Of a DNA stretch of 56,159 nucleotides, positions 6,806 through 33,082 are shown one piece after another; positions within the stretch are counted from its first letter, which is position 1; each line of letters opens with the position of its first letter. The notes under the pieces were generated by a model. It was given only the letters and a program-made list of their open reading frames with translations. It was not told the origin of the DNA and searched no databases. Source of the DNA: Eubacterium sp. (GTDB taxonomy: Bacteria; Bacillota; Clostridia; Lachnospirales; Lachnospiraceae). The stretch is from assembly GCA_017472565.1 (NCBI GenBank), contig JAFUPY010000121.1, positions 1 through 56,159 of the forward strand. The letters are read 5' to 3'. Position numbers and translations under genes: made by a program.

Positions 6806-6827
6806 CACTGTAGAGGGAGACCCATAT

Positions 6828-11678: not shown

Positions 11679-11695
11679 CCAAGCAAAGCCTCTTC
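11658..11695. terminator. bidirectional terminator overlapping the araC2 stop codon
   Basis: GAAGAGGCCTTGCTTG pairs with CAAGCAAAGCCTCTTC with one mismatch; the TAG stop of araC2 (11676-11678) lies in the loop. T-rich tails are on both sides (TCTTTCTTATTTT on plus, TTCTTTTTC on minus). It separates araC2 from the convergent pnuC gene. Confidence 0.8.
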
Positions 11696-11734
11696 TCTTT
11701 CTTATTTTGAATCTATAAAATAATTCTTTATTTT

Positions 11735-13597: not shown

Positions 13598-15043
13598 TTA
13601 CATCCACTCAGATACATCTACATCCATAAATATGGCTCTGGTCATCTCTTCCTTCGCATCAAATGGCACAGTGCAATCATAAATTGCTTTTGTTCCCAAT
13701 CCCTCTGTCCGAATACTTGAATCATAGAATTTCTTCTGGGTTGGATCTGCCTTATGGCAACGAATATTTGAAATTGTACTCATATCCATCTCTGGCTTAA
13801 ATCGAGTGTTAAAAGCCCACATAACATCATTTGGATCAAAAATATCCACATCCTCATCTACAAGGAATATGTTTTTTAATTCCGTGCACGCTCCAAAGGC
13901 TATGAGAGCTGCCTGTTTCTGCTTGCCTTCATCTTCTGCTCCCTCTTTTTTAACCTGCAAGATAGCCATTAGCTTCCCACCGCCACCTGGAGGGCAATAG
14001 ACATTTTTCACTTTTCCTGGCAAAGCTCTGGATGTCATTTGTAAAATACTTGCCTCTTCTGCAATACCTGCCATATTTACATGCTCTTCACTGGCCCCAA
14101 TACACACTTGCATAATCGGATTCGTTCTGCAAGTAATGGCCTTTACCTTAAGCACCGGGAAAACTCTGGCAGCACCATTGTATCCAACAAATTCTGGGAT
14201 TGACCGTCCTGTGTGAGTATGCTGATCTTCAGACACTTTCTCTTCTATGCTTAATTCACCTTCAATTACATACTCCGCATTGGCAATGGCATACTCCTCA
14301 ATGGTTTTGCATTTCACCAACTCGACAGGCTGTTTGCGAATCGCACCAGCAACAGCAAGCTCATCAAAACCAAGAGGTGTTGTTGGCGACTGGAAACAAG
14401 CAGCAATACTAATCGCCGGATCGACACCAATACTAATGGAAATTGGAAATGCTTTGCCAAGTTTCTTTGCTTTTTGATAAAACGCTCCCATGTGCCGAAA
14501 TCCGCCAAATCCAACCGTCATAGTGTCGCGTCCCTGTAGACACATTCTGTGATGAGCAATGTTGGATTCCCCTGTCTCAGGATCATGAGTATAACACAAC
14601 CCCATAGTAATATATGGGCCAGCATCTCGTTCTGTATTCAATGGTGCTGGAAGAATTTTCCTAATATCAAATTCCGGATCATCAGCATAATATACATTCT
14701 CCTGACAAGCAGCCTTTGCATCTATTACAACAGGATTTACCGGATGTTCTACCGCATCCAAAAAAGCATATCCCAAACGTTCTGGCTCGATGCCCAGCAT
14801 AAGACCCACTCTGTCTCGATGACCCAAAAGGCCAATCAGTACACTGGAAGCCTTATACCCTTTTACATTCTTGAACAACATAGCTGGCCCAAGCTGTGTT
14901 GGTCTCTTCACCGTTCCCCCAGCACCAATCCTTCGATAGATGCCCGCGATTTCAGCTCTTGCATCCACAAGGCGATCTGTTTCAAGATATTGTCCATCCT
15001 GCTGTTTTATTACTTCTATTGCACTTCGTAAATCAAATGTCAT
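13598..15043 (-). CDS. UbiD-family (AroY-like) aromatic acid decarboxylase 2
   Basis: The 481-residue prFMN-dependent decarboxylase is a paralogue of the one at 7967-9436. The opening (DLRSAIE, GIYRRIGAGGTVKRPTQ) and active-site stretch (AHHRMCLQ, GGFRHMG, AEYVIEGELSIEE) match position for position. I chose the ATG at 15043 with TAGGAGAAG upstream. It is the last gene of the TRAP2 operon, behind a terminator-like hairpin. This operon and the benzoyl-CoA-reductase-like operon share an operator, so this enzyme may work on the same pathway, for example removing a carboxyl from an aromatic dicarboxylate or its CoA ester, as UbiD-like phthaloyl-CoA decarboxylases do. The substrate is inferred only. 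Confidence 0.92.
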   Translation of the reverse strand: MTFDLRSAIEVIKQQDGQYLETDRLVDARAEIAGIYRRIGAGGTVKRPTQLGPAMLFKNVKGYKASSVLIGLLGHRDRVGLMLGIEPERLGYAFLDAVEHPVNPVVIDAKAACQENVYYADDPEFDIRKILPAPLNTERDAGPYITMGLCYTHDPETGESNIAHHRMCLQGRDTMTVGFGGFRHMGAFYQKAKKLGKAFPISISIGVDPAISIAACFQSPTTPLGFDELAVAGAIRKQPVELVKCKTIEEYAIANAEYVIEGELSIEEKVSEDQHTHTGRSIPEFVGYNGAARVFPVLKVKAITCRTNPIMQVCIGASEEHVNMAGIAEEASILQMTSRALPGKVKNVYCPPGGGGKLMAILQVKKEGAEDEGKQKQAALIAFGACTELKNIFLVDEDVDIFDPNDVMWAFNTRFKPEMDMSTISNIRCHKADPTQKKFYDSSIRTEGLGTKAIYDCTVPFDAKEEMTRAIFMDVDVSEWM

Positions 15044-15065
15044 TTTACTTCTCCTACTTAAAAAA

Positions 15066-15097
15066 GGGAATCGCACTGCTTCCACAATACGATTCCC
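15066..15097 (-). terminator. terminator or attenuator between dctP2 and ubiD2
   Basis: GGGAATCG (15066-15073) pairs with CGATTCCC (15090-15097). On the minus strand TTTTTT follows at once, and the ubiD2 ribosome binding site begins only a few bases later. This is the shape of an intrinsic terminator inside an operon, so ubiD2 is probably expressed at a lower level than the transporter or is conditionally read through. Confidence 0.7.
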
Positions 15098-15149
15098 TGT
15101 ACTGCTTAATCTAGATTATATCAAACAATTCTACATCAAGACAGGTTTA

Positions 15150-16208
15150 TTATTTTGCATTCCAATCTTTAATCAGATCAATCAACTTAAGACCTTTATC
15201 TGTACAGTTCTTAGAAATTTCCTCAAAAATTGTATCTACATCATCCAAAAATGCTGCTTCTTCAGCTTCTGTCAGATAGTATACTTCTGCATTGCCATCG
15301 TAGAACTGCTGTGTGTATTTTTCAAGATATTCCTGACCAATTTTCTGACCTTCTGTTAAGTAAATCTTAGATGCTTCTTCAACCCATGCCTGCTCTTCCG
15401 CTGACAAACTGTTCCATGTATCACCTGCCATAACCATAGACGCAACACTATTTGTGGTATTAAAGAATGTAACATATGGAGCAACTTCATACAGTTTGAA
15501 AGATCCAACTACACCATAAGCGGTTAATGTACCCTGCACCATGTTACGCTCTAAACCAGTTGTAAGATCGCCCATATCCATAGTTGTTGCGGATGCTCCC
15601 CAAAGTTCGAATAGTCTTCCAAGATACTGACCAGCTGAACGATAAGCTTTTCCTTCTAAATCTGCTGGGCTTTTTACTAATTTTTCATTAGAAACGATAA
15701 CTGCCTGGCAGGACTGATTTAATGCCAGATATTTTAAGTTGTAATCAGAATAGATAGAATCTAATGTATCATGAAGAGCTGCTTCAAACTCAATAAAGGT
15801 TGTCGTATCTTCTGTATCTTCATAAGAGAAAACACCTGGTAAATCCATTGCAGCTACATCAGGAATCATAGAACATGCTGTAGATGGTGTAAGATGTGCG
15901 ATGTCTACAGTTCCAGATGTTAATGCTTCAAGAGCTTCTGAGTCTGTTGCAAGTGTTCCGCTGGCATATACCTTTGCTGTAAGCTGTCCACCACTGACTT
16001 CTGCCAGTGCATCTGCAAATGCCTGATATTTGTAATAGTTGTCACTGCCTTCTGGATTACCGATACTGATTGTAAGTTCTCGTGCTTCCCCTGAAGTTCC
16101 AGCCTGTCCTGATGATCCACCAGGTGTTGATTGTTCGTTGCTGCCGCAGCCAGCTAAGCAACCTACTGCTAAACCTGCTGTCAACAAAAGTGCTAAAATC
16201 TTTTTCAT
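15150..16208 (-). CDS. TRAP transporter substrate-binding lipoprotein (DctP type), system 2
   Basis: The 352-residue exported binding protein has a lipoprotein signal (Lys-Lys then a hydrophobic run ending LAGC), then LTISIGNPEGSDNYYKYQAFADAL, a DctP-type opening strand and helix. Middle motifs include GKAYRSAGQYLGRLFELWGASATTMDMGDLTTGLERNMVQGT, which aligns with the ligand-binding segment of DctP proteins. It is clearly different in sequence from the system 1 protein, so the ligands may differ. I prefer the ATG at 16208, which begins the signal peptide; an ATG ten codons earlier (16238) also has AAAGGAG before it and cannot be excluded. Confidence 0.9.
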   Translation of the reverse strand: MKKILALLLTAGLAVGCLAGCGSNEQSTPGGSSGQAGTSGEARELTISIGNPEGSDNYYKYQAFADALAEVSGGQLTAKVYASGTLATDSEALEALTSGTVDIAHLTPSTACSMIPDVAAMDLPGVFSYEDTEDTTTFIEFEAALHDTLDSIYSDYNLKYLALNQSCQAVIVSNEKLVKSPADLEGKAYRSAGQYLGRLFELWGASATTMDMGDLTTGLERNMVQGTLTAYGVVGSFKLYEVAPYVTFFNTTNSVASMVMAGDTWNSLSAEEQAWVEEASKIYLTEGQKIGQEYLEKYTQQFYDGNAEVYYLTEAEEAAFLDDVDTIFEEISKNCTDKGLKLIDLIKDWNAK

Positions 16209-16282
16209 ACCTTCCTTTGCATAGTAATTTATTACCATGCTCTCCTTTCTTTTTTTATTTTGTAAAACCCTTATATCCTAAA

Positions 16283-17644
16283 TTACATAGAATTTGGAAT
16301 AACTAAAGCAATCTGTGGGAAGAAATTCAGGATTGCTAAGCCAAGCAACAATACTGCCACGTATGGGAGAGATCCCTTTATAATAGATCCCATCTCTGCC
16401 TTCGTTGTGTTCTTCAGAACGAACAGGTTCAGACCCACTGGCGGTGTAATCATACCAATTTCAACGCAAAGTGTAGAAACAACACCAATCCACAACGGAT
16501 CAAACCCAAGTGCAACCAATGTAGGGAATACAAATGGAATTGTAAGTACAACCATACTTCCTGGTGACATCAGCATACCAAGCACGAACCAAAGTATATA
16601 CAGAATCAACATTACAACCCATCTGTTAACACCAGATGAAATAATCATGGCTGCAAGATCAGAAGCAATTCCTAATCGTGTGATTACCTGACTTAAGCAA
16701 AGACCGGTAATCATCATAAATAACATCATGGATGATGTACTTGTAGTAGCTACCATTGTATTAAGGAACACTTTTCCATTCATTCGCTTCATAAGCAGAA
16801 GAATGATAATTGCACCAAAAACGCCAATACCAGCGGCCTCTGTAGGCGTTGCAATACCCATATACATACATCCGATTACAATTACAATCAGTGCTACTGC
16901 TGGCAACGCAAGTTTCAAATCATACCCAATTGAAGTCTTTCTCTGGTCCATTTCATTTGGAACAGTTGCACGCTGCTCGTCATCCAGTGCAAACATGCCG
17001 CCTCTAGAAGCATATTTCTCTTCACCAATCAGAGCTGGATTAAAACGTACTCGAATAACGACAGAAACACACATAAGTACTGCCAGCATAATACCTGGCA
17101 ATAAACCTGCCATAAGCAATTTAACGATAGAGGTTTCTGTTAAAATACCAAACTGTACAAATGTTAAACTTGGTGGAATCATGATGCCTAACGTGCCACC
17201 GCCAGCCACCGTGCCAATTGCAAAAGATTTTCTGTAACGTCTCTTTGTCATCTCATCGATGGAAACTTTACCAATCGCTGCTGCTGTTGCTGGAGAAGAT
17301 CCACAAAGTGCAGCAAAGATTGTACACGCTATAGTTGTACTGATAGCTAATCCACCTTTTAATTTCTTAAGCCACTTATTAATAACATAGTATATATCTT
17401 GCGCTATATTCCCTCGCGTCAGGAACTCGGCCATCATGATAAACAACGGTGCAATCAACTGGTTTGCACTTACTACCTGCCCATATGCCGTAGTAGCAAA
17501 CGATGGTACGAATTTCATACCGACAAACATTGCCATACAAACAATTGCAGTAAAACCCATGGAGCCAGAAACAGGAGCACCTATTGCCAAGGTTATAAGC
17601 AAGAGAATAACTACAAAAACGATCATTAAAATCATATCATTCAT
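16283..17644 (-). CDS. TRAP transporter large permease subunit (DctM type), system 2
   Basis: The 453-residue polytopic membrane protein carries DctM signatures: PLFIMMAEFLTRG, GGTLGIMIPPSLTFVQFGI, GMLMSPGSMVVLTIPFVFP and ITPPVGLNLFVLK. A longer central cytoplasmic loop (about residues 200-235, EEKYASRGG) distinguishes it from the system 1 protein. GAGAGGAA precedes the ATG. It lies 23 nt after the small subunit and works with it and the binding protein in uptake of an organic anion. Confidence 0.93.
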   Translation of the reverse strand: MNDMILMIVFVVILLLITLAIGAPVSGSMGFTAIVCMAMFVGMKFVPSFATTAYGQVVSANQLIAPLFIMMAEFLTRGNIAQDIYYVINKWLKKLKGGLAISTTIACTIFAALCGSSPATAAAIGKVSIDEMTKRRYRKSFAIGTVAGGGTLGIMIPPSLTFVQFGILTETSIVKLLMAGLLPGIMLAVLMCVSVVIRVRFNPALIGEEKYASRGGMFALDDEQRATVPNEMDQRKTSIGYDLKLALPAVALIVIVIGCMYMGIATPTEAAGIGVFGAIIILLLMKRMNGKVFLNTMVATTSTSSMMLFMMITGLCLSQVITRLGIASDLAAMIISSGVNRWVVMLILYILWFVLGMLMSPGSMVVLTIPFVFPTLVALGFDPLWIGVVSTLCVEIGMITPPVGLNLFVLKNTTKAEMGSIIKGSLPYVAVLLLGLAILNFFPQIALVIPNSM

Positions 17645-17667
17645 TTTTCTATTCCTCTCTTTCTATT

Positions 17668-18180
17668 TTATAGGTACTGATCTTCTCCGCTCAGTAGATC
17701 CAAAATAATAAAGATTAACGTAATTAACATGAGAATCGTACCGAGCATCATGCCCGCATATAACACAGAAATTGGTATTGGATGTGTTGCCTGTGTCATC
17801 TGGTTATACATCATAGCCTTTTGCGTTAAACCTACAGCACCATACAAAATAACAACAAGGAAAATAAATGTTATAACATACCCAGCAATAGACATGATTC
17901 TACGTGGTATTCTCTTTGCTCCCTTTGTCTTCTTATCAACCCAGTCCTTAACCATGTCTACACCAACATGGGAACCCTCCTGGAACGCGTAGGAACTACC
18001 CAAGAAAATGGACCACACAAGCAAATAGCAACATACATTTAATGACCAGGATGTAGGGCTATTAAACACATAACGCGCAACTGCCTCATAAACAGAGAGA
18101 AATGCAATTACTAATGCCAGCACACCGGCAACTGCAGCAATCGCCTTGTTAATTTTTCCCCATATTTTAGGGTATTTCAT
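17668..18180 (-). CDS. TRAP transporter small permease subunit (DctQ type), system 2
   Basis: The 170-residue protein has four hydrophobic segments and the usual DctQ landmarks (YEAVARYVFNSPTSWS, FQEGSHVGVDMVKDWV). It is the first gene of the Q-M-P-UbiD operon. Two ATG codons lie near the start; I chose 18180 because GGAGG is then 8 nt upstream, whereas the ATG at 18186 would be only 2 nt from it. A palindromic operator lies about 105 nt upstream. Confidence 0.9.
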   Translation of the reverse strand: MKYPKIWGKINKAIAAVAGVLALVIAFLSVYEAVARYVFNSPTSWSLNVCCYLLVWSIFLGSSYAFQEGSHVGVDMVKDWVDKKTKGAKRIPRRIMSIAGYVITFIFLVVILYGAVGLTQKAMMYNQMTQATHPIPISVLYAGMMLGTILMLITLIFIILDLLSGEDQYL

Positions 18181-18290
18181 TTTCATTTCCTCCTTTCTCC
18201 TGAATAAAACTTTGGCCAGCCAATCTTTTATTGTCTATATGTTCATTTTAAAACATCTGAACCTTCAAGCAATTCAATTTGCGTTCTCTT

Positions 18291-18439: not shown

Positions 18440-19372
18440 TTATACATTTTGAATAGAAATTTTCCGTTCCAAAGATTCTTGAATAAACAGTTCCGCCGAC
18501 TGGCTTCTTAAATATGCGAGGTAATCTTTTGCACATTTTGACAACACCTCTTTTTTCCTCCAGGCAAGTACATATGAACAATCTCCCATACCCTTTAACG
18601 GAATCTGCTTTGTTAATTTACCTGGATATTTCAGCATCACTGTCTTTGGTGCAATATAGATGCAATCCTCTGTGGATATTAATATCTCAATAGCAGTTGC
18701 CGGATCATTGGTTTCAAACTCAATATCCAATTCATATCCTTCCTTTGCACATACACGCTGACAATGCTCTCCATCCTGGCTTCCCAAAATGATTCTTTTT
18801 CCCTTTAAATCTGACAAAAAGAGCGCGTCTCTTTTAGCCAGTTTTGACTCAACAGAGACTGTAGCAATATAGTAATCCTGCATATAATGTTGCCAGGAGA
18901 ACGTGTTTACATCCAACATGTTTTCTCTACAGAAAGCCAACTCATAATCTCCAGAATTCAAGGCAAACAAAACATTCTTAGTAGCCGCATCGTCAATATT
19001 CAGTTTTACCTCTGGATGAATGCGCATAAACGCCGCAAGAGAGTTAATCAAGCCATAATGAGACATTCGATTACCGCCTACAACCTTTAATTCATAAGAA
19101 TTATATTCTTTTCTTTTGATTTCCTCTAAAGCTATCAAAGATTTATCATATACCTCCAAAATCTCCGCATAGTATCTGAGCATTTTCTTTCCTGCTTCAG
19201 TCAACGCAAACGTTTTACCATTACGATATAATAGAGGGATTCCTAATTCCTGTTCTAAACTCATAATATGTTTAGACACTGTAGATTGAGCAATATATAA
19301 CTGATCAGCCGCCTCTGAAAAATTTCCCAAAGTTGCAACCATGTAAAAACTTTTAAGTCTTGAAATATCCAT
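18440..19372 (-). CDS. LysR-family transcriptional regulator A
   Basis: The 310-residue protein begins with a winged helix-turn-helix (SRLKSFYMVATLGNFSEAAD, QSTVSKHIMSLEQELG, TEAG) and continues with a periplasmic-binding-like effector domain. LysR proteins bind dyad sites upstream of their targets and respond to a small ligand. It lies between the TRAP2-ubiD2 operon and the reductase operon, both of which carry the same ATTCC-N5-GGAAT dyad, so it is the natural candidate for controlling both. It has its own promoter region, since a terminator at 19479-19510 closes the upstream operon. Confidence 0.93.
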   Translation of the reverse strand: MDISRLKSFYMVATLGNFSEAADQLYIAQSTVSKHIMSLEQELGIPLLYRNGKTFALTEAGKKMLRYYAEILEVYDKSLIALEEIKRKEYNSYELKVVGGNRMSHYGLINSLAAFMRIHPEVKLNIDDAATKNVLFALNSGDYELAFCRENMLDVNTFSWQHYMQDYYIATVSVESKLAKRDALFLSDLKGKRIILGSQDGEHCQRVCAKEGYELDIEFETNDPATAIEILISTEDCIYIAPKTVMLKYPGKLTKQIPLKGMGDCSYVLAWRKKEVLSKCAKDYLAYLRSQSAELFIQESLERKISIQNV

Positions 19373-19551: not shown

Positions 19552-20217
19552 CTAATTAATATCTATGCAATCTATTCTTTTTAAGCCTGGTGCTATTTCA
19601 CAAGGTCCATTAATCATATCTATGATTTGTTCTGCAGGATAATCTGAAAAATGTTCTATCAAAATAAACTTCCCATCTTTTATCTGCAAAACACCAAATT
19701 CAGTATACACTTTAGACACTACATTTCTTCCAGTGATTGGATAATCACACAGCTCCACCAGCTTAGATGTTCCATCCTTCAAAGCACTTTCCATAGCAAT
19801 GATTATCTCTTTCGCTCCTATTGCCAAATCCATCGCACCACCAATACCATTAGCAGGACACCCTGGCAACCGCCAGTTCGCAAAATTCCCCTGACAATCC
19901 ACCTGAAAAGCACCCATTACAGATTTGTCTAAATGTTTTCCGCGAATCATCTGAAAAGACAGCATGCAGTCAAAAAATGATCCACCCACATTATCTTTTA
20001 CAAAATGATTTACAGAATCTCTCATCTCATAATCTCCGAGATCCGCAGGCGTTCCTTCACCGAAACACACAACACCAGATTCTATCTGAATGTAAATCTG
20101 ATACTCCCTTGGTATATACTTCCCTACCAAATATGGGATTCCATGCCCGAAACTGACAAACTCACCATCTGTTAAATCTTGTGCAATTTTCCATGCAATT
20201 CTTTCTCTATCGTTCAT
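19552..20217 (-). CDS. CoA transferase subunit B (3-oxoacid CoA-transferase type)
   Basis: The 221-residue protein matches the beta subunit of class I CoA transferases (AtoA, ScoB, PcaJ). It has FVSFGHGIPYLVGKYIP near the start, a conserved Glu in QIESGVVCFG where the family's SENG catalytic glutamate lies, and GFxVDCQGNFANWRLPG and GAMDLAIGAK segments. It is the partner of the alpha subunit upstream, with a one-base TAATG stop-start overlap. The pair moves CoA between carboxylic acids. In this operon it may activate the aromatic acid or recover CoA from the reduced product. It is the last gene before the terminator. Confidence 0.9.
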   Translation of the reverse strand: MNDRERIAWKIAQDLTDGEFVSFGHGIPYLVGKYIPREYQIYIQIESGVVCFGEGTPADLGDYEMRDSVNHFVKDNVGGSFFDCMLSFQMIRGKHLDKSVMGAFQVDCQGNFANWRLPGCPANGIGGAMDLAIGAKEIIIAMESALKDGTSKLVELCDYPITGRNVVSKVYTEFGVLQIKDGKFILIEHFSDYPAEQIIDMINGPCEIAPGLKRIDCIDIN

Positions 20218-20900
20218 TAGGCACCTACTTTTTGAATCACAATACTGTCTATAAATGGCGCTGGTATAGAAACACCGTTTGGATCCATGGTTCCACCTTC
20301 AACCAACTCCTTTGCTTCAACAACAACATAGTCTGCCGCTGTAGCCATAGCCACGTTAAAATTAGCAGCTACACCTCGATGATGAACATTTCCATATGTA
20401 TCCACAACACTGCCATAAATAAATGCAACGTCCGCTCTCAACGGAAGTTCAAGAAGATACTCTTTTCCCTGAATAGTTATGATTTCTTTCCCGTTTGCAA
20501 CTTCCGTACCGAGCCCGGTCGGCGTCAATACTCCGCCAAGGCCTGCACCTCCAGCACGTATTTTTTCAACAAATGTTCCCATTGGATACATTTCTATTTC
20601 CAATTTTCCTTCTTTGGCCATCTTCATTGCAACATGATTATGTCCAATATAGGAACAAACGATCTTTTTGAACATCCCAGTTTCCACAAGAGCATTTCCC
20701 AAAGCATCTTTAAACACAAATTCAGAGCAGGCATCATTCGTAATCAATGTTAAATTTTCTAATTCACCTGCCCGATATGTTAATGCTCGCACCAAATCAA
20801 ATGGAGCACCACTATAGAAAAACCCTCCTAACATGATACTGTTATTTGATTTTATTTTTGACACAGCTTCTTCTGCAGTAAGTATCTTTTTATTATTCAT
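20217..20900 (-). CDS. CoA transferase subunit A (3-oxoacid CoA-transferase type)
   Basis: The 227-residue alpha subunit of a class I CoA transferase begins NKKILTAEEAVSKIKSNNSIMLGGFFYSGAPFDLVRAL, with the glycine loop typical of AtoD, ScoA and PcaI, and has a GTFVEKIRAGGAGLGGVLTPTGLGTEV segment. I chose the ATG at 20900; a longer frame to 20966 would lie inside the upstream gene. The start overlaps the end of the upstream activator-like gene by 8 nt, so the two are translationally coupled. The partner is the next gene. Confidence 0.91.
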   Translation of the reverse strand: MNNKKILTAEEAVSKIKSNNSIMLGGFFYSGAPFDLVRALTYRAGELENLTLITNDACSEFVFKDALGNALVETGMFKKIVCSYIGHNHVAMKMAKEGKLEIEMYPMGTFVEKIRAGGAGLGGVLTPTGLGTEVANGKEIITIQGKEYLLELPLRADVAFIYGSVVDTYGNVHHRGVAANFNVAMATAADYVVVEAKELVEGGTMDPNGVSIPAPFIDSIVIQKVGA

Positions 20901-21678
20901 TCGCACTCTTCCAATCCACAGCGCATAATGCAGCGCCAATAGCACAGCCGTATTCTGCCATCTCATTTGTAATAAATGAAATACCCTTTTTAGCAGACAT
21001 AGCCTCTACAAAAGCTTCATTTTTACTCAAACCGCCTAGCAGCATGAATTTCTCCTCGTTAGGAAATGTAATATCATTAATGGTTGCGTTTGTCCTTACT
21101 GCCGCCGCATGAATCACTGCCCGCATTACATCTTCTGCAAAAGCGCCTTTGTTCATATGTTCCAAAACATCCATTCTGGCAAATACAGGACAACCATCAC
21201 TAACTTTGATTACATTTTCCCCTCTCAAAGAAGAAACTTTTTCATAATCCCAACCGAATTCATCTGCCAAATTATCAATCATCATGCCTAATCCAGCAGA
21301 ACATTTCTGATTCTGGAAATATTCTGAAATAGTCTCATCCTCATTCATAACAGCGACAAGCACTTCGTCTGCTCCAATATTTGCTACCATTGTTGCGTCT
21401 GGACACAAGTACTTAGCAGCTTTGACCATACAAATCAGTTCTGTCTTTCTAACATCACCAAAAGGAACATTGTACTTACCTTTTCCGGTAACACCGATTG
21501 CTTCAATATCTCTATCTTCAAGCAGAGCTTCTTTAACAGCCACATTCCAAAGTTCTGTCACATTCTGTTCTCGATTGATTCCGCCGGACAGTCCTTGTTT
21601 TTTTATAACAAGTCTATCATCATCAAAAATAACTACTTTGGTATATTTGATACCTACATCAATTCCTCCTGTAATCAT
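20893..21678 (-). CDS. benzoyl-CoA reductase ATPase subunit (BcrD/BzdP-like)
   Basis: The 261-residue ASKHA-fold ATPase of the BadF/BadG/BcrA/BcrD family starts GGIDVGIKYTKVVIF (phosphate loop), and has GVTGKGKYNV and ANIGADEVLV. Two cysteines that bridge a [4Fe-4S] cluster across the ATPase dimer are present: QKCSAGLG and DGCPVFARMD, with LLGGLSKNEAF and GAALCA near the end. Its length is close to BcrD or BzdP. ATP hydrolysis here would drive low-potential electrons into the ring-reducing subunits. I chose the ATG at 21678 because AAAGGAG precedes it. Homologous activators serve 2-hydroxyacyl-CoA dehydratases, but two different ATPase subunits in one operon argue for a reductase. Confidence 0.85.
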   Translation of the reverse strand: MITGGIDVGIKYTKVVIFDDDRLVIKKQGLSGGINREQNVTELWNVAVKEALLEDRDIEAIGVTGKGKYNVPFGDVRKTELICMVKAAKYLCPDATMVANIGADEVLVAVMNEDETISEYFQNQKCSAGLGMMIDNLADEFGWDYEKVSSLRGENVIKVSDGCPVFARMDVLEHMNKGAFAEDVMRAVIHAAAVRTNATINDITFPNEEKFMLLGGLSKNEAFVEAMSAKKGISFITNEMAEYGCAIGAALCAVDWKSANE

Positions 21679-21702
21679 TTTTTCACTCCTTTCATGCAAC
21701 TT

Positions 21703-23025
21703 TTACTCGAATTTGCTAAGCCCCAGACTTTCCATCCAACCATCAAGCTGCTCTAAGAAACGTTTTTCATCCAGATCTGTTCTATCACCTGGCTGGCTTC
21801 CCTCATATGTAAGTACAGAAAGACCTTTCTTACGAAGAAGCATCGCCTGTTCTTTTCTTGTGAACGTACATCCAACACCACTTCTCCAAAGGCCAAAGAT
21901 TGCACCGTCTGCCCGGAAAATATCTGCAAATTCGTAAATTGCTTCTGGGCGCATGTATTCATCCTGTTTAAAGTGCTGTGGAGTTCTCGCATCCGGACCC
22001 ATCATGTACCTTACTGCGTCTTCTCTGGTTTCAATCTTAGTATCCGGACTATATGTCAACATATCTCGACGCTCAATAGAGCCATCAGCTTTTCGTTCTA
22101 AACTTGTTCCTGAAATTGAATGGGAGTACTGTGAACCGAGACATACTGCTCCATACTGCTCCATGTATCTGTAATATTTCAGATAATGCCATGATGGTGG
22201 ATGTGCCTCAATCCAACGAAATCTTTCATTACCCACCGCTGCAATTTTTTCTTCAACTCGCCATGCGACCTCATCTCTCAGCATTCTCCAGAAATTAACG
22301 GTTTCTTCTGGATCTACTTTTGTCAAACCACCCAATGTATAGAACGAATACAGATCTTTTGTTGAAAGCGGCGCTGGGATATTGGTCATTAAAAGAGAAA
22401 CATCTCTAGCGTAGTCTTGAATCTGCTTATTTGCATCCATTGTTTTTATAAGCTTCTCATCATCAAACTTCCTGTCAAAGATTCTTTCAATATCATTAAT
22501 CTGACGTAATGTGCAGTAGGCTCGATGTTCTAACATAGCCTCTTCTCTTGCTTCATCCCGAGGGCCTAAGTACATACACTGATCTGCCATCCACTGTGGC
22601 ACAGGCTCAAAATCTCGAACTTGCACTCCTCGTTTTGCATGTGAATCGCAAACACATGGAAATGGCACTACAAAATCTCTATTAGGAAATGGTTTTCCGC
22701 TGATGTCATAACCTAGAAACTGACCACCCCAACAGTTATTGTGATATCCACAAATTTCTCGGCCCCAACCACGCACTTCACATGCGAGACGACTCTTTCT
22801 GGCAAATGGAGAGGATTTACTTGCAATCATCGCCCCGTCCGGATTATCTTCCAAAACGGTAATATTAGAAAAGCAATCAGACCAATCACCGAAGAAACCA
22901 CAGTTTCCCTGCCCAATCAGATTGTCCTTATTATGTGCAGAATTCTGCCATTTTGCTCTCAGTTCTTTTGCTTTGGCCCAGCTATCGAGGGGTCTGGTTT
23001 TCCATATCTGTCCTTTCTGACTCAT
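21703..23025 (-). CDS. benzoyl-CoA reductase catalytic subunit (BcrB/BzdO-like)
   Basis: The 440-residue protein belongs to the benzoyl-CoA reductase / 2-hydroxyglutaryl-CoA dehydratase D family and matches the BcrB side. The stretch CGYHNNCWGGQFLGYDISGK (cut here) to VPFPCVCDSHAKRG corresponds to the BcrB cysteine region, and AHPPSWHYLKYYRYMEQYG to its EGPPNW segment. Likely cluster cysteines are around 92, 124/126 and 386 (SGVGC). With the 381-residue subunit downstream of it in sequence space (23040-24185) it would form the active site for aryl-CoA reduction. The order A-C-B-D on the transcript, with all four subunits, is that of class I reductases. The real substrate could be a substituted benzoyl-CoA. 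Confidence 0.85.
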   Translation of the reverse strand: MSQKGQIWKTRPLDSWAKAKELRAKWQNSAHNKDNLIGQGNCGFFGDWSDCFSNITVLEDNPDGAMIASKSSPFARKSRLACEVRGWGREICGYHNNCWGGQFLGYDISGKPFPNRDFVVPFPCVCDSHAKRGVQVRDFEPVPQWMADQCMYLGPRDEAREEAMLEHRAYCTLRQINDIERIFDRKFDDEKLIKTMDANKQIQDYARDVSLLMTNIPAPLSTKDLYSFYTLGGLTKVDPEETVNFWRMLRDEVAWRVEEKIAAVGNERFRWIEAHPPSWHYLKYYRYMEQYGAVCLGSQYSHSISGTSLERKADGSIERRDMLTYSPDTKIETREDAVRYMMGPDARTPQHFKQDEYMRPEAIYEFADIFRADGAIFGLWRSGVGCTFTRKEQAMLLRKKGLSVLTYEGSQPGDRTDLDEKRFLEQLDGWMESLGLSKFE

Positions 23026-23039
23026 ACTATATCCCTCCT

Positions 23040-24185
23040 TTATCCCTCAAATTTTGTATTCCATCCTGAAAGATGTGTGACCCCAGGACGAAGCATATTA
23101 ATAAACGCTTCTAATCGCATAGACATATCTTCTTCCTGAAGATGCATATCCCTCTCGAAATACAAGAATGGAATGTTTCTTTCTCTTAACATTTTCCATA
23201 CCGCATAGTTGTCAGACCCATGCAAGTGACAATATATTTGTTTGGAAATAATCACACCATCCACATTGTAATCTTCTGTCAACTCAAAAATATGTTGAAT
23301 TCGTCTTCTCCAGTTGTTATCTTTGATAGGATTATGCGGGCGTCCTAAATACCGCAAGGAAAGCGCCATCAGGCGATCTTTCTGTTCAATTACCTCGTTC
23401 CAAAAATATGAACTTCCTGTATCTAGCTCATCAATAACAATATTGGCACCTAATTTTTCCACCAATTCTTCTAAATCTGTGTTGAAAGTTTCACTTCCCA
23501 CTAACATCAAGCGAATACGGTCTGCATATGGCTCTCTACCTTCGATTTCATCTAAATACGCTTCCAAAATAGAATTTACTTCTGCCTTATCCATGACTTG
23601 GCTTGCCAACACAATATTCATTGCCTCAGATCCCAAAAGCACACTCTTATTCATACGGCGAAGTTCATACATCCTTCTCAGAAGACGACGATTTTTATTG
23701 TATACTGCAATCGCATTATCCAATGCTTCATCTGTAATCGTATTGCCTGTCCACGCTTCCATTTTTTCTTTCAAAACATTCATCTCTGAACGTGCAACGT
23801 CCTTGGAAGTTGGTGCATCTGTGTAGTCTGGCATGAAGAAATAGTGATTAAATATATCTGGTTTGTTGTTAACTGTCACTTCAAAAACATTGAACATCCA
23901 CTGACAGCCTTCCACATTCACAAGTCCATCCACATAATCATATCTTCCTTTGAGAATCTGGTTCACCATGTCCCTAACTGGATAACATGGTGCATACATC
24001 CATTTGTCTGAGATATCATCTTCTTCATGTTCTGCTAAAATCCTTACAGGTAATGCACCTGCTGCATATACAATCTCTTCTGGCATATAAGGTTCAAAAA
24101 AACCTAACACTTTTCCGCCAGTTTTTTCTTTCCAGGCTTTTGCATATTCATGTCTATCATTTACTAACTGTTTAAAATCTACCAT
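23040..24185 (-). CDS. benzoyl-CoA reductase catalytic subunit (BcrC/BzdN-like)
   Basis: The 381-residue protein aligns with BcrC/BadD. It opens KVLGFFEPYMPEEIVYAAGALPV, has WMYAPCYPVRDMV (C67) and NVEGCQWMFN (C94), and a third cysteine in IYCHLHGSDN (about 319), which are the three positions that hold a [4Fe-4S] cluster in this family. An MxxLRxM-like helical segment (LRRMYELRRMN) lies in the middle. GGGGTGA precedes the ATG. It is followed 14 nt later by the BcrB-like gene. 2-hydroxyacyl-CoA dehydratase subunits are related, so biochemical assignment rests on the four-subunit context. Confidence 0.85.
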   Translation of the reverse strand: MVDFKQLVNDRHEYAKAWKEKTGGKVLGFFEPYMPEEIVYAAGALPVRILAEHEEDDISDKWMYAPCYPVRDMVNQILKGRYDYVDGLVNVEGCQWMFNVFEVTVNNKPDIFNHYFFMPDYTDAPTSKDVARSEMNVLKEKMEAWTGNTITDEALDNAIAVYNKNRRLLRRMYELRRMNKSVLLGSEAMNIVLASQVMDKAEVNSILEAYLDEIEGREPYADRIRLMLVGSETFNTDLEELVEKLGANIVIDELDTGSSYFWNEVIEQKDRLMALSLRYLGRPHNPIKDNNWRRRIQHIFELTEDYNVDGVIISKQIYCHLHGSDNYAVWKMLRERNIPFLYFERDMHLQEEDMSMRLEAFINMLRPGVTHLSGWNTKFEG

Positions 24186-24207
24186 TCTTGATTCACCCCG
24201 CTTCCGT

Positions 24208-25101
24208 TTATTCTAATGCATAAAGTGCCGCTCCAATGGCTCCTGCTAACATAGGGTCATATTCGCTGGTAAGAGCAGTTATTTTTAATTCTCGTTCCAA
24301 TCGTTTCACAATTCCTGGATTTTTGGCCAATCCACCCGTCAATCCCAGTTCTGGATAGACAGCCAATTCGCCAACTTCCAACGGCTGCAATTTTCCTACA
24401 ACCCCTAATATTCTCCACGCTATTGCAAACATATGTCCGGCATAAACTTCATTCTCCGTAGTAGTTTCTTCTCTAAAACCAGGGTGGAACATACCCATTG
24501 TCTCTGTCTGTGCATATGCATAACAAGTTGTGCTTACTGGCTCTGGATCACGCTCTACTTCTAGAGACTTTTCGCCAATCTTATCAAGGCTAATCTGTAG
24601 CAATTCGCACAATTCTTCTATGTTGTGTCCCATACCTGTGGCACATTTGTCGTTCACCATAAAATCTCTCACACGATCCCAGCTGTGAAGACGAACAGCT
24701 TTTACCGTCTGTCCTCCCATATCAATAACTGTTGTTACGGAAGGACCGAACATATATCGCGCCCCTTTTCCGTGGCAATGTATTTCGTCCACATATGCAG
24801 ATGCAAAGGCCACGTTTTTATGTCCAAATCCTGTGCACACTACTTTTGTTACATCTTTCAATTCAATATCCAGACCTTCGATAGCTTTATTTATTGCTTT
24901 TTCAGCCGCATTTTTAAAATCCATTCCTGTTTTGATTATGGAATAACACAAAATTTTTCTATCACACATCACAACCGCTTCTGTGCTTGTTGTTCCCACA
25001 TCTATGCCCACGGTAATCTCTTTTGCCGCTTTCCAGTCTACCTCTGAAAAGACTTTTTGGGATTCTTCCCATACGCCATATTTTTTCATTAATCTGTTCA
25101 C
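24208..25101 (-). CDS. benzoyl-CoA reductase ATPase subunit (BcrA/BzdQ-like)
   Basis: The 297-residue ASKHA ATPase has the phosphate loop GIDVGTTST at residues 32-40, TGFGHKNV, VIDMGGQTVKAV, the cluster-bridging cysteines NDKCATGMG (C153) and TTCYAYAQTE (C193), and GLTGGLAKNPG with GAIGAALYALE at the end. At 297 residues it is shorter than Thauera BcrA (over 430) and nearer the Azoarcus BzdQ form. About 28 residues precede the first strand. The start is uncertain: the frame opens with GTG at 25101, and an ATG four codons later is also possible. It pairs with the second ATPase at 20893-21678. Confidence 0.85.
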   Translation of the reverse strand: MNRLMKKYGVWEESQKVFSEVDWKAAKEITVGIDVGTTSTEAVVMCDRKILCYSIIKTGMDFKNAAEKAINKAIEGLDIELKDVTKVVCTGFGHKNVAFASAYVDEIHCHGKGARYMFGPSVTTVIDMGGQTVKAVRLHSWDRVRDFMVNDKCATGMGHNIEELCELLQISLDKIGEKSLEVERDPEPVSTTCYAYAQTETMGMFHPGFREETTTENEVYAGHMFAIAWRILGVVGKLQPLEVGELAVYPELGLTGGLAKNPGIVKRLERELKITALTSEYDPMLAGAIGAALYALE

Positions 25102-25127
25102 ATCCTTTTCTAAGCATTTGAAAACTT

Positions 25128-26696
25128 CTACTTATCAAAACATCCCATGCGACCGCCCTGGAAAATACGAGTATCCATGGTTTTTAAATTCTCACTGAGA
25201 ATTGGTTTGAAGTCCATCTGCGTCAAAACATCTTTCTCCAAATCAACTCCCGGTGCGATTTCTGTTAATACTACGCCTTCTTTTCTTAAATTAAATACGC
25301 AGCGTTCAGTAACGATTACTACTTCCTGTTGACGTTCTCTGGAGTATTTTCCATTAAAAGTAATCTGTTCCACGTCAGAAACAAATTTTGGGACTTCACC
25401 CTCAGAAACAATATGTAAGCCAGATTCATCAACAGTTGCTTTGAATCCTTTCGTTTTGAAATATGTACAGAACACAATTTTCTTACTGGTCTGACTAATA
25501 TCAATAAAACCACCTTGTCCAGCCGGACGTCCGCCAAAACGACTTACGTTTACATTTCCTTCCCCGTCGAGCTGTGCTGCCCCAAGGAATGTAATATCAA
25601 GATTTCCACCATGGTAAAAATCAAACATAGATGGGTGCGCTAAGAAAGCAGTCGGATTGAGTGTAGCTCCAAAGTTTGGTCCTCCTTGTGGTGCTCCACC
25701 AATTGCTCCCAGTTCCAGCGTAAAGGTTACTTTGTCTACAATATTCTCTACTGCTGCCACGTTACCCACACCGGCACCTACGCCTACACCTACATTTACA
25801 ACAGAACCTTCATATAATTCAAACACTGCACGTCTACAAATGATATCTGCCGGAGTCAGCACTCCATCCTGTGGGACTACGCGATTGATTGGACCTTTTA
25901 ATTCGCCACTCATATATGGGTTATACAACGTACCATCTGTCATTCGATGTGTTTCTTCCACATTTTCTGCGATAACTATTGCATCAACTATTTCTGCTGG
26001 AATAACAACATTTTTTGCCGGAATTCCACCCTCATTTACCACGCGTTCAACCTGAACGATTACTTTACCGCCAGATGCTTTTGCCGCAAGTGCAACCTCT
26101 AAAACTTCCAACTTTAATGCTTCTTTTTCAATGCTTACATTTCCGCTTTCATCTGCTGTCGTTCCTCGAATAATTGCTGCTGTAACTGGTTGACTTTCAA
26201 AAAACAACCATTCTTCTTCATCCAGTTCCATCACTCGAACAATATCTTTTGTCGTGATGCTGTTCATTTTGCCACCATCTTGTCTCGGATCAATATAAGT
26301 TCCAATTCCAATTTTTGATAATAACCCTGGTTGTTTTGCAGCAGAACATCTATATAACTGATTCAACACCCCCTGAGGAAGCACATAAGCTTCAATCTGG
26401 TTCTGTTCAATCATATCTCTAACTTTAGGCACAACATCAGGATGAGAGCAAACCACTTTTTTCAGCATCCCCACATGTGCAAAATGGTTATCACCCCAAT
26501 CTTTCTTTGGCACTCCATGTCCGCATCCAGAATATAATGTCAATTCTTTAGGATGACCTGTTTCTAAAAATCGTTCTTCTAATTTTCTTGCAATATATTC
26601 TGGAAATCCAATCAATCCAGCCGCAGTAATCGCAATACAGTCTCCATCTTTTAATAAATTCATTGCGGATTCAACACTCATTATTTTGTTTCTCAT
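25128..26696 (-). CDS. propionate/acetate CoA-transferase-like enzyme (Pct/YdiF type)
   Basis: The 522-residue protein fuses both halves of a class I CoA transferase, as in Pct and YdiF. The N-terminal half has AITAAGLIGFPEYIARKLEERF and YSGCGHGVPKKDWGDNHF. The C-terminal half holds the catalytic glutamate in the ELGAIGGAPQGG motif and a SRFGGRPAGQGGFIDISQ segment. I chose the ATG at 26696, which has GGAGGG upstream; the longer frame to 26777 has none. It is the first gene of the operon, so CoA activation by transfer instead of ATP-dependent ligation is the likely entry step. Acceptor acid not known. Confidence 0.9.
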   Translation of the reverse strand: MRNKIMSVESAMNLLKDGDCIAITAAGLIGFPEYIARKLEERFLETGHPKELTLYSGCGHGVPKKDWGDNHFAHVGMLKKVVCSHPDVVPKVRDMIEQNQIEAYVLPQGVLNQLYRCSAAKQPGLLSKIGIGTYIDPRQDGGKMNSITTKDIVRVMELDEEEWLFFESQPVTAAIIRGTTADESGNVSIEKEALKLEVLEVALAAKASGGKVIVQVERVVNEGGIPAKNVVIPAEIVDAIVIAENVEETHRMTDGTLYNPYMSGELKGPINRVVPQDGVLTPADIICRRAVFELYEGSVVNVGVGVGAGVGNVAAVENIVDKVTFTLELGAIGGAPQGGPNFGATLNPTAFLAHPSMFDFYHGGNLDITFLGAAQLDGEGNVNVSRFGGRPAGQGGFIDISQTSKKIVFCTYFKTKGFKATVDESGLHIVSEGEVPKFVSDVEQITFNGKYSRERQQEVVIVTERCVFNLRKEGVVLTEIAPGVDLEKDVLTQMDFKPILSENLKTMDTRIFQGGRMGCFDK

Positions 26697-26915: not shown

Positions 26916-27902
26916 CTACAGCAGATGTGCTCTCAAATATTCGCCGCTCTGTGCGCTCAGATATGCCGGCGCAATATCAAATACCGTTTTACATCCTGTC
27001 TGTCCTTCATTTGCCAGACGATATGCCGCTCTTGCGTAAGCTACGATTACACTGGAGGTAAATTCTGGATTGGAATCCAGCTTTAAGCTGTACTCAATGA
27101 TGTGGTTGTGTTCGTTGTCCCAACCGGTTTTGCCGGATCGGATTACCATTCCACCATGCGGTATACCGCTGTGATTTGCAATCAGTTCTTCTTCTGTGAT
27201 GAAGTTCACGGTTGTATCATAATCAGCAAAGTAGTTTGGCATCGTTTTGATGGTCTCTTCTACCTTCGCTGCATCTGCGCCTTCTTCTAATACAACATAA
27301 CATTCACGCGTATGTTTCTGGCGGGTTGTCAGTTCTGGATTTTCACCGGAGCGAACGGCCGCAACCGCTGCATCTACAGGAACGGTATACTGCTTACCAT
27401 TCTTAACACCTTCCACACGGCGAATTGCATCAGAATGGCCCTGGCTAACGCCCTTGCCCCAGAATGTATAGTCCACACCCTTTGGCAGGATTGCATTGGC
27501 ATACATTCTGTTTAAGGAAAACATTCCCGGATCCCAGCCTACGGAAATAATGCCTACCTTGCCGGCTGCTTTTGCAGATGCATCAACATTAGCAAAATGT
27601 TCTGGAATTCTTGCGTGTGTATCAAAGCTGTCAACCACGTTGAACATCTTTGCATATTCTGGTGTCTGCACTGGAAGATCTGTTGCACTGCCGCCACATA
27701 AGATAAGCACGTCGATCTTATCCTTCCAATCTGCAATATCCGCCACATTCGCTACTGCAGCTTCTTTTGTCAGGATAGAAACGGATGCAGGATCTCTTCT
27801 TGTGAACACTGCTGCCAGTTCCATGTCGTCATTCTGTTTGATGGCACATTCTACGCCACGACCAAGGTTACCATATCCTAAGATACCGATTTTAATACTC
27901 AT
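26916..27902 (-). CDS. ddh: meso-diaminopimelate D-dehydrogenase
   Basis: The 328-residue NADP-dependent enzyme makes meso-diaminopimelate from tetrahydrodipicolinate in one step for lysine and peptidoglycan. It begins with a Rossmann loop (IGILGYGNLGRGVECAI), then FTRRDP, VLILCGGSATDLP, NVVDSFDTHARIPEHF, ISVGWDPGMFSLNR and FWGKGVSQGHSDAIRR, all characteristic of Ddh, and its length is usual. It has its own promoter region and terminator, so it is a single-gene unit lying between the catabolic operons. Confidence 0.96.
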   Translation of the reverse strand: MSIKIGILGYGNLGRGVECAIKQNDDMELAAVFTRRDPASVSILTKEAAVANVADIADWKDKIDVLILCGGSATDLPVQTPEYAKMFNVVDSFDTHARIPEHFANVDASAKAAGKVGIISVGWDPGMFSLNRMYANAILPKGVDYTFWGKGVSQGHSDAIRRVEGVKNGKQYTVPVDAAVAAVRSGENPELTTRQKHTRECYVVLEEGADAAKVEETIKTMPNYFADYDTTVNFITEEELIANHSGIPHGGMVIRSGKTGWDNEHNHIIEYSLKLDSNPEFTSSVIVAYARAAYRLANEGQTGCKTVFDIAPAYLSAQSGEYLRAHLL

Positions 27903-28075
27903 GTTTATTACCTCCGTAATTGTCGAACCATATAAACATATGTGTCAGGCAATCTTTCTGATGCATACAAAAGCAACGACTCTTTTGCACACAATACTCT
28001 CTTAGTGTTTCTTTAAGGCTTTATTGTATCACTGTAGTAAAGAGATTTCCACACTTTTTTATAATTCCCGAAAAA

Positions 28076-28114
28076 AAGAAGTTCCTGCCAGGCAAACAAA
28101 CACATGGCAAGAAC
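28076..28114 (-). terminator. intrinsic terminator of the propeller/MFS/reductase/VOC operon
   Basis: GTTCCTGCCA (28081-28090) pairs with TGGCAAGAAC (28105-28114) with one mismatch. On the minus strand TTCTTTTTTT follows. It lies 21 nt past the last VOC gene. Confidence 0.87.
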
Positions 28115-28134
28115 CCCCTTTTCTTACTTAATAT

Positions 28135-28557
28135 TTATTTTACGTTCCGCATATCTCCCTCGAAAAGTTCAATCAGGTTCCCGGTTGGATCACTGATGAA
28201 TATTCCATAGGTTCCCCACACATCTGCGGTCATTACGATTTCCACACCCAATTCTTCCAACTCCTTTTTACAAAGTTCTCTGTCTGGAACAGAAAGTGCA
28301 AAATGTTTATTCCCATGAACCATCAAATCTGTGTTGGGATATCTACGCGACTCAGGCAATTGCTTTGCTCCCCTTGCCTCAAACAATTCAAGCACCATAC
28401 CTGGGCCTTCCATATGAGCAGTTTTGACATCAATACCCGGGATTTCATCTCTTACCAGTAATTTGAATCCTAAAACTCTTTCATACCATGCAAGAGATTC
28501 TTCCACAGATGCAACACTCACAGCAAAATGGTTGACGCCAATCTTTGTAATACTCAT
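28135..28557 (-). CDS. VOC-superfamily (glyoxalase/bleomycin-resistance fold) protein B
   Basis: The 140-residue protein has the paired beta-alpha-beta-beta-beta modules of the vicinal oxygen chelate fold: INHFAVSVxxxExSLAWYERVLGF-like opening (GVNHFAVSVASVEESLAWYERVLG), MEGPGMVLELFE, HFALSVPDRELCKKELEELG and FISDPTGNLIELFEG. Metal ligands typical of the fold (His near residue 9, Glu near 57, His near 85 and Glu near 134) are present. Such proteins include epimerases, lyases and dioxygenases. It is the last gene of a five-gene operon and lies 21 nt after a second VOC gene of different sequence. Confidence 0.88.
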   Translation of the reverse strand: MSITKIGVNHFAVSVASVEESLAWYERVLGFKLLVRDEIPGIDVKTAHMEGPGMVLELFEARGAKQLPESRRYPNTDLMVHGNKHFALSVPDRELCKKELEELGVEIVMTADVWGTYGIFISDPTGNLIELFEGDMRNVK

Positions 28558-28578
28558 ACTATCACAACCTGCCAGAGA

Positions 28579-29088
28579 CTAAACCATGATACCCATTGTA
28601 TCAAAGAAGTCTTCCATTTCCGGTGGACAGTCATGTAACTGGAAAATAATGCCGCCAGTTTTGCTTGGGTCTAGGAATGTCATACGAACACCATTTTTGT
28701 ACTGAGAATGCCCAACAACACCAATACCTGCTTTTTCCATCTCTGCGATTGTGTAATCATACTGCTCTCTGGTTACAGAATAACCAAAGTGCCAGATGCC
28801 TTCGCCATGGTTAGCAAGATAGTTTTCTACGATTGGGAACTGCCCATCTGTTGGATCAAATAACTCAAGAACCACATTTCCGCATTTCGCAAGAGCAACT
28901 TTGCATCTGTTTTCCATACCGCCCGCATACTCTCTAAATGCAAAATCATGACCACCATCATTTTCGCCCAGAATGTAGCGGCGCCATGGTCCAATACCCA
29001 TTGCTTCAAAATTCTTAATGGTCTCATCAATATCTTTTACTGCCCATCCTAAATGAGCGATGTTGTTAAATGGTAATTTTGGCAACAT
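28579..29088 (-). CDS. VOC-superfamily protein A, methylmalonyl-CoA-epimerase-like
   Basis: The 169-residue VOC-fold protein begins with NNIAHLGWAVKDIDETIKNFEAMGIGPW, resembling the methylmalonyl-CoA epimerase branch, and has VVLELFDPTDG, GIWHFGYSVTREQ and GGIIFQLHDCPPE. The His and Glu positions of the metal site are kept. I chose the ATG at 29088 with GGAGG 9 nt upstream. Equol-forming bacteria use an epimerase of this branch (dihydrodaidzein racemase) beside an ene-reductase, and here too a VOC gene follows an ene-reductase gene. That makes epimerisation of the reductase product a plausible, unproven role. Confidence 0.87.
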   Translation of the reverse strand: MLPKLPFNNIAHLGWAVKDIDETIKNFEAMGIGPWRRYILGENDGGHDFAFREYAGGMENRCKVALAKCGNVVLELFDPTDGQFPIVENYLANHGEGIWHFGYSVTREQYDYTIAEMEKAGIGVVGHSQYKNGVRMTFLDPSKTGGIIFQLHDCPPEMEDFFDTMGIMV

Positions 29089-29137
29089 AATCATTTACCT
29101 CCAAGTCTTATTCATATTTTTACTCTATTTGCTTTCT

Positions 29138-30370: not shown

Positions 30371-30394
30371 ATATGTACCTCCCAAAACGTATTT

Positions 30395-31645: not shown

Positions 31646-31667
31646 AACTTGATCTCCTTTCAAGTAA

Positions 31668-32990: not shown

Positions 32991-33082
32991 TACCTCACCT
33001 CCTATGTTTTTAGTGTTTTTGCACAATATAATTGTAGTATGAGCGTCTATTTTTCGTCCAATCGTTATATGTTCAAGTTGTC

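Follow-up and report, generated by a model that had tools for sequence, protein, structure and literature searches.

Which reaction is carried out by an operon that follows the four-subunit plan of class I benzoyl-coenzyme A (CoA) reductases and also encodes CoA transferases? This question is raised by seven minus-strand genes of Eubacterium sp., a member of the Lachnospiraceae, which form one operon running from position 26696 to position 19552 of contig JAFUPY010000121.1 (assembly GCA_017472565.1); the whole stretch of 56,159 nucleotides was analysed and is called the window below. A first-pass annotation, made from the sequence alone, had described it as a class I benzoyl-CoA-reductase-like operon fed by CoA transferases. 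We propose, at a probability of about 0.46, that its product is an aryl-CoA reductase of a distinct, ATP-dependent type, which receives its substrate through CoA transfer and likely acts as an electron sink. This proposal is backed by a clade adjacent to the Bzd-type reductases, two activases, the conservation of active-site His and Tyr residues, a dedicated CoA transferase and the benzoate-pathway ring-opening hydrolase gene oah reaching its cut-off in none of 18 clade genomes. It is also backed by URO-D-family (methyltransferase-like), B12, TRAP and Amidohydro_2 neighbours, and by humus-feeding termite hosts.

Kinship with Bzd-type reductases

The operon, with the gene families initially reported, was confirmed. 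Matches above the curated Pfam cut-offs were obtained for CoA_trans in three open reading frames (ORFs), all three thereby assigned to family I CoA transferases, for BcrAD_BadFG in two and for HGD-D in two, and the class I plan of two HGD-D subunits (N and O) plus two ASKHA activases (Q and P) is present. All genes named in the first-pass annotation, the two activases and the terminator stood; one part that did not stand was the likeness to BcrC and BcrB, the nearest relatives being BzdN and BzdO. Among solved structures, N matched BzdN with E 6.9e-63 and HadC with E 1.2e-24, O matched BzdO with E 8.1e-48 and HadB with E 1.8e-7, and the nearest activase for both Q and P was MbdQ of 3-methylbenzoyl-CoA reductase. 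NCBIfam agreed with these structure searches on Bzd kinship, yet the scores for N (232 bits for a benzoyl-CoA-reductase cut-off of 453.8), O (183.5 for 448.6) and Q (Table 1) fell well short.

Maximum-likelihood trees were built from 61 N-type and 76 O-type sequences. The clade of the window proteins, with 31 N rows and 51 O rows, had 100/100 support in each tree, and the Bzd group, with five rows per tree, had 100/99 (N) and 95/77 (O). Clade and Bzd group were jointly split from all other rows with support of 100/99 (N) and 100/100 (O), and HadC, MbdN, DCCP and the other HGD-D rows lay outside. N and O are therefore placed not inside the Bzd branch but in a separate neighbouring clade; since the trees are unrooted, with a drawn root only, "sister to Bzd" presupposes a root outside both groups.

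The first interpretation is supported in part. Its claim that the operon is akin to class I benzoyl-CoA reductases and not to dehydratases was borne out by these trees. The outcome that had been named as fatal to it, subunits falling inside the 2-hydroxyacyl-CoA dehydratase clade, was not observed: N and O stand beside BzdN and BzdO, N away from the HadC branch and O away from 20 other HGD-D rows (unnamed or plasmid-borne), in trees where HadB is absent from the O set and true Bcr/Bad sequences from both. A 2-hydroxyacyl-CoA dehydratase with two activases would share the HGD-D and activase families, and N has the three family cluster cysteines, like a dehydratase beta subunit. CoA transferases, moreover, commonly supply dehydratases. 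However, N lies outside the HadC branch with full support, the Glu found in 20/20 other HGD-D rows is Asn here, the reductase-type His129 is kept, and two activases are encoded where a dehydratase has a single activator. Dehydratase identity was rejected on tree position and residues, and we regard it as very improbable.

CoA transferases and the ring-opening pathway

YdiF-type CoA transferases in the 18 clade genomes fell into two sets, split at 55% identity to that of the window. In the set with at least 55% identity, 15 of 18 were encoded within 2.5 kb of O or N, as opposed to 0 of 15 in the set below 55%, when positions that near O or N make up about 1.15% of the genome. This linkage indicates that the YdiF-type subfamily belongs to the system, and the view that CoA is supplied by a transferase rather than by a ligase gains a dedicated enzyme. 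Four of the 18 genomes (G494, G507, G508 and G509) had no YdiF-type match at the search E-value. Close relatives of CtfA/CtfB were found in only two of 53 related loci (L042 and L043).

The oah gene exceeded its cut-off in two of 22 genomes, both of the Bzd type (two of the four Bzd-type Firmicutes); the remaining two Bzd-type genomes had split partial matches. In the clade it exceeded the cut-off in 0 of 18 genomes (17 weak matches of 23-75 bits and one genome with none), these being metagenome-assembled genomes (MAGs) that are incomplete. With this limit, the early remark that a canonical ring-opening hydrolase is lacking extends from the window to the clade. An acetogenic context as a common theme was rejected, CdhC being found in 3 of 18 clade genomes.

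Cysteines of the activases and of the N subunit

Two cluster cysteines per activase had been predicted, and they are kept throughout: C153/C193 of Q in 29/29 relatives of at least 240 residues, and C133/C170 of P in 29/29. Elsewhere in the window, a protein of 1412 residues (47951-52189), a large activase fusion, contains two activase domains (TIGR00241 at 50459-51220 and 51416-52162).

The prediction of three cysteines in each of the two HGD-D subunits was right for N, which has exactly three (C67, C94 and C319), and wrong for O, which has eleven, four of them (C92, C126, C295 and C386) invariant in 51/51 clade rows. The N alignment comprised 31 rows, including near-copies from sister MAGs (28 groups at 90% identity; two partial rows dropped). 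BzdN C73, C100 and C327 are kept in 31/31, whereas C36, C263 and C293 are kept in 1/31, 3/31 and 4/31, none of them in window N, with acidic residues filling most C36 and C263 positions. The clade accordingly does not share the six double-cubane cysteines of Bzd-type N. MbdN also lacks C36, C263 and C293, so that their loss alone does not exclude reductase activity; HadC lacks C36 and C263.

Selenocysteine in N was considered and rejected. Of 42 N matches, five contained in-frame stops, one of these having two: the N frames of L093 and L082 are open for 376 and 375 residues up to stops at the end, and the other three matches (G498, G506) reach position 377-379 of 381.

Residues of the O subunit and weighing of the readings

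Window O was aligned with 50 rows of at least 90% coverage, including near-copies from sister MAGs; the 51 rows form 44 groups at 90% identity, and five partial rows were dropped. Outside these 51 are the O genes of L052, L055, L057, L061 and L062 and one of L044, on GC-rich contigs, which the gene caller missed. The comparison set consisted of 25 other catalytic subunits, five of the Bzd group and 20 from other HGD-D branches.

BzdO C95, C128, Tyr97, His131 and Tyr298 are kept in 51/51 clade rows, H129, Y94 and Y300 of window O corresponding to His131, Tyr97 and Tyr298. According to excerpts of the structural study (papers are cited here by PMC number, from parts of their text), Tyr97 and Tyr298 are hydrogen-bond partners of the thioester oxygen, and His131 lies beside the cluster-bound water (PMC11971306). 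This His is kept in 5/5 Bzd rows and in only 1/20 other HGD-D rows. In the same excerpts, a hydrogen atom passes from the cluster-bound water to C4 of the ring, followed by an electron and then by a proton to C3, for which Glu65 is thought to be the donor (PMC11971306).

From a mechanistic point of view, a carboxylic acid, probably a substituted plant-derived aromatic acid as the neighbours in some loci suggest, would be activated by the dedicated YdiF-type transferase or by CtfAB, with a short-chain acyl-CoA as the CoA donor. If the enzyme operates like BzdNO and HadBC, ATP would be spent by activases Q and P on feeding low-potential electrons one at a time to the N cluster; from there they would reach the O cluster, where reduction of the CoA-bound ring would take place. 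The product may then leave the CoA pool by further transfer instead of being handled by the canonical benzoyl-CoA ring-opening pathway, and for that reason a role as an electron sink appears likely. Reduction as the direction of the reaction, as well as the physiological role, is to be taken as probable in this same sense.

Several observations weigh against an aryl-CoA reductase of this kind. The position of BzdO Glu65 is Asn (N61) in 51/51 clade rows, when Glu is present in 25/25 other catalytic subunits (5/5 Bzd and 20/20 other HGD-D), and also in HadB. Likewise, BzdO C380 is replaced by Gly in 51/51, with an invariant Cys three residues later, when it is kept in 24/25 other subunits, the exception being a cut Bzd sequence. 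With Glu65 and the third cluster cysteine both changed, the chemistry may differ from that of BzdO. The tree program warned that long branches meet in both trees, including the O clade and other HGD-D rows, and the stem of the O clade measures 2.18 changes per column. Neighbouring genes differ from locus to locus, with no substrate-specific gene conserved beside the CoA transferases. Expansion of the URO-D family is also seen in relatives without the operon, such as a genus mate (G001) with 18 matches, and in the 15 kb examined of L043, whose operon is the same, TRAP genes are absent. In tblastn searches at E 1e-10, neither the UbiD gene nearest the operon nor the amidohydrolase of the window had a relative in the 53 loci, which slightly lowers our confidence. 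Lastly, the incompleteness of the MAGs makes absences weak.

Could the enzyme be a benzoyl-CoA reductase proper, converting benzoyl-CoA to the dienoyl-CoA with ATP? It adjoins BzdNO in the trees, keeps the positions of His131, Tyr97 and Tyr298, and has in MbdN a fellow without C36, C263 and C293. Nevertheless, Glu65, the C380 position, Gln274 and the double-cubane cysteines are altered, oah exceeds its cut-off in none of the 18 clade genomes, and scores lie well under the curated cut-offs. We find this quite unlikely: the overall plan resembles that of a class I reductase, but the operon should not be filed as benzoyl-CoA reductase, since several of the defining features tested are lacking.

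The clade-wide loss of Glu65 makes reductive removal of a substituent a concrete alternative. A reductive eliminase would add a hydrogen atom and an electron to a hydroxy- or methoxybenzoyl-CoA, expel the substituent and thereby restore the aromatic ring. Its difficulty lies in the departing group, as hydroxide and methoxide are poor leaving groups. In addition, Asp60, which adjoins Asn61, or Cys295 could replace Glu65 as the acid; both are invariant in 50/50 aligned rows. On the other side, the BzdO model has Glu65 fix the diene by protonating C3, and this proton donor is gone in 51/51 clade rows. A precedent is reported in excerpts on the Thauera enzyme, where fluoride departs from C4 and benzoyl-CoA is formed if the anion is less readily protonated at C3 (PMC4992971). 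We judge such an eliminase unlikely.

Ring-pocket residues differ as well, BzdO Gln274 being replaced by Pro in 51/51 clade rows and the Leu302 position being variable; the Ser44/Trp46 stretch was placed differently by two alignments. These differences, together with OYE and VOC genes upstream of the operon in the window, would suit a reductase of a non-benzenoid CoA ester, either heteroaromatic or a cyclic or conjugated enoyl-CoA. The URO-D-family and Amidohydro_2 neighbours of some loci and the UbiD genes of the window suggest phenolic acids instead, albeit indirectly, and a non-benzenoid substrate seems to us hardly probable. The aryl-CoA reductase fed by CoA transfer remains the preferred reading.

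The additional Cys295 of O, invariant in the clade, is found in 0/25 other subunits. In a profile comparison with an overall probability of only 60%, it aligns to C263, a double-cubane ligand of BzdN, which may hint at equivalent positions; the O and N clade profiles gave weak overall matches only.

Distribution and copy number

Among 98 genomes (the window's own and 97 relatives), an O match was found in the window's own genome only. Across the phylum, 42 of 398 genomes had some O match at E 0.001 or better, and the clade was present in two of the 398, the window's own and G303, which has four copies at 63-70% identity; four further genomes encode Bzd-like proteins at 32-35% identity. The 53 related loci were obtained in a scan of named genomes; by title, 49 are from Bacillota, three from Chloroflexota and one from a MAG labelled Acidobacteriota. 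By count of titles, the sample codes Nt197, Th196 and Emb289 account for 28 of the 53; these stand for Neocapritermes taracua, Termes hospes and Embiratermes neotenicus, which are humus feeders according to excerpts of the source (PMC7024585).

The branch has multiplied in these bacteria. In 17 MAGs, the highest numbers of O matches were 14, 12, 8 and 8, accompanied by 6, 8, 6 and 5 N matches; the counts include partial matches, and one O in G500 consists of two pieces. No N lay within 3 kb in 20 of 64 O matches (window included), some of which are near contig ends. Q, P and N occurred together in 16 of 53 loci, as seen with a crude gene caller on contigs of which many are cut. The MAG locus L060, from a humus-feeding termite, carries at 657-11968 three complete O genes in series, with other genes between some, followed by Q-N-O cut at the end. 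The assembly has the Bzd-type O of G147 in two pieces (L041, 9473-10537).

The many O copies, the share of them without a near N and the URO-D-family neighbours would agree with an enzyme set acting on rings with different substituents, in line with a reductive eliminase. One may go further and picture another kind of BCR/HAD (benzoyl-CoA reductase/2-hydroxyacyl-CoA dehydratase) radical enzyme, an eliminase stripping hydroxyl or methoxyl groups, in which sets of up to 14 O subunits share fewer N subunits and termite gut bacteria dispose of electrons on lignin-derived aromatics; we consider this wider picture rather unlikely.

Operon layout and neighbouring genes

The features of the operon and of its downstream flank are collected in Table 1. 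Along the seven genes the intergenic distances are 26, 22, 14, 3, -8 and -1 bases; the start of CtfA at 20900 was picked from several possible ones, and the first gene has an alternative TTG start at 26777, upstream of 26696. Terminator-like sites in the whole region numbered 6 for a shuffle mean of 6.6, hence no excess. A step in GC content at the operon was rejected (40%, with 37-44% in other stretches of the window). The nearest neighbour, locus L043 of the Clostridiales MAG MI.B10_7, has 86% identity in both N and O and matches the window operon in all seven genes and in their order. In L042, from a Lachnospiraceae MAG (85%), Q, N, O, P, CtfA and CtfB are present, the contig starting just before Q.

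Table 1. Features of the operon and its downstream flank (window positions; bits are NCBIfam scores).
Feature	Position	Strand	Evidence or remark
YdiF/FadX-type family I single-chain CoA transferase (Cat1)	25128..26696	-	Pfam CoA_trans; PDB 2ahu YdiF, E 1.7e-121
ASKHA activase, Q-like (bzdQ type)	24208..25101	-	TIGR03192 224.4 bits, cut-off 380.2 not reached; MbdQ 9gai_D, E 6.4e-44
N subunit, bzdN-like, presumed electron-storing partner	23040..24185	-	keeps C67, C94, C319
O subunit, bzdO-like, presumed catalytic	21703..23025	-	C92, C126, C295, C386, N61, H129 clade-invariant
ASKHA activase, P-like	20893..21699	-	TIGR00241 135.9 bits, exceeds cut-off 125.4
CoA transferase subunit A (CtfA/AtoD type)	20217..20900	-	TIGR02429 182.7 bits, exceeds cut-off 128.5; 8k9h_B, E 8.9e-53
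CoA transferase subunit B (CtfB/ScoB type)	19552..20217	-	TIGR02428 207.7 bits, cut-off 243.55 not reached; Pfam CoA_trans over cut-off
Terminator-like hairpin, 13 pairs, then TTTTTGC T-run	19510-19479	-	downstream of CtfB
LysR-type regulator, possible regulator	18440..19372	-	downstream; link from position
TRAP transporter genes Q, M, P, possible substrate uptake	15150..18186	-	Q, M named by reading and similarity
UbiD-family decarboxylase (VdcC-like) beside TRAP genes	13598..15085	-	link to operon by proximity

At the related loci, one URO-D-like gene cluster is represented in eight, the two members that were scanned both exceeding the URO-D cut-off; URO-D genes also occur in L082 and L085, and a B12-binding protein in L049, where a gene resembling the URO-D-like ones stayed below Pfam URO-D at E 0.001. 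TRAP or Opp transporters accompany some loci, Amidohydro_2 proteins three of them, and thiolase and SDR genes L058 and, by map reading, L093; the remaining labels come from reading of the locus maps. PF01208 was found in 17 of 18 clade genomes and in 3 of 15 relatives, these controls being relatives of the window genome and not matched by phylum or habitat. The window genome itself (G000) has 13 URO-D matches and G001 has 18, with none in 12 of the 15 relatives searched; the lineage is rich in this family.

The TRAP M protein of the window has 51-56% identity to those in L078, L091, L085 and L044. UbiD as a conserved operon partner was rejected (0 of 53 loci). Downstream of the operon, the window carries two UbiD genes (in 3884-9436 and 13598-18186), each adjoining TRAP genes, one set also including Amidohydro_2; these sets may be a second sign of phenolic-acid metabolism on the contig. 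Upstream of the operon, a run of genes at 26916-33026 encodes a protein above the diaminopimelate dehydrogenase cut-off, two VOC proteins, an OYE-type flavin reductase, an MFS transporter and an LVIVD-repeat protein; in the related loci the only counterpart seen was in L086, matching the LVIVD protein at 31%. Further upstream, the ORFs at 34965-35861 and 38117-38398, the second of which is short, share the near-identical start KKQKKNMVPLQDLNLTSRFLYDEVMESS and appear to be a duplicated, partly truncated gene.

Comparison with known systems

In open-licence PMC literature, searched by titles and abstract starts, no description of this clade was found. The catalytic dimer of a class I enzyme was first solved structurally in 2025, according to excerpts of that study (PMC11971306). 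Bzd-type class I enzymes have been described in Chloroflexi with a full benzoate pathway, in the part of the source consulted (PMC5736913). A survey of the human gut, again from excerpts, reported Bad-type matches that lacked an accompanying benzoate-CoA ligase; either activation by a novel enzyme or inactivity of the pathway was suggested there (PMC7946887).

The BCR/HAD family is one of very low-potential reductions. The clade adds a well-supported neighbouring branch that has a CoA transferase of its own, has multiplied in bacteria from humus-feeding termites and differs at two active-site positions whose residues are kept in 25/25 and 24/25 other subunits. It bears on the factors that steer this family towards ring reduction or towards elimination, and on how humus aromatic residues are reduced in anoxic guts.

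DCCP (PDB 6eno) shares the fold family, and it is to a cluster ligand of the double-cubane type that C295 of O aligns (BzdN C263, probability only 60); it is a homodimer with a double cubane per monomer in the excerpted description (PMC11971306). HadBC with HadI (PDB 3o3m, 4eht) has two HGD-D subunits and ASKHA activation, as in the window operon. Its beta subunit has three cysteine ligands, and HadI is a single homodimeric activator, according to excerpts (PMC11574389). In contrast with the window, HadB has Glu where O has Asn61 and lacks a His where O has His129, and HadC lies on a different branch. MbdNOPQ (PDB 9g87, 9gai) has two activases, and its N subunit has C73, C100 and C327 like window N; MbdN, however, lies outside the Bzd group and the clade on a long branch, the comparison being made by N and activases alone.

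Closest is BzdNOPQ of Aromatoleum sp. CIB (PDB 8s02), which has the same four-subunit plan and provides the nearest N and O relatives by PDB, NCBIfam and tree. The clade differs from it by Asn in place of Glu65, a third cysteine shifted by three residues, the extra Cys295, the general loss of three of the six double-cubane cysteines, and oah not over the cut-off.

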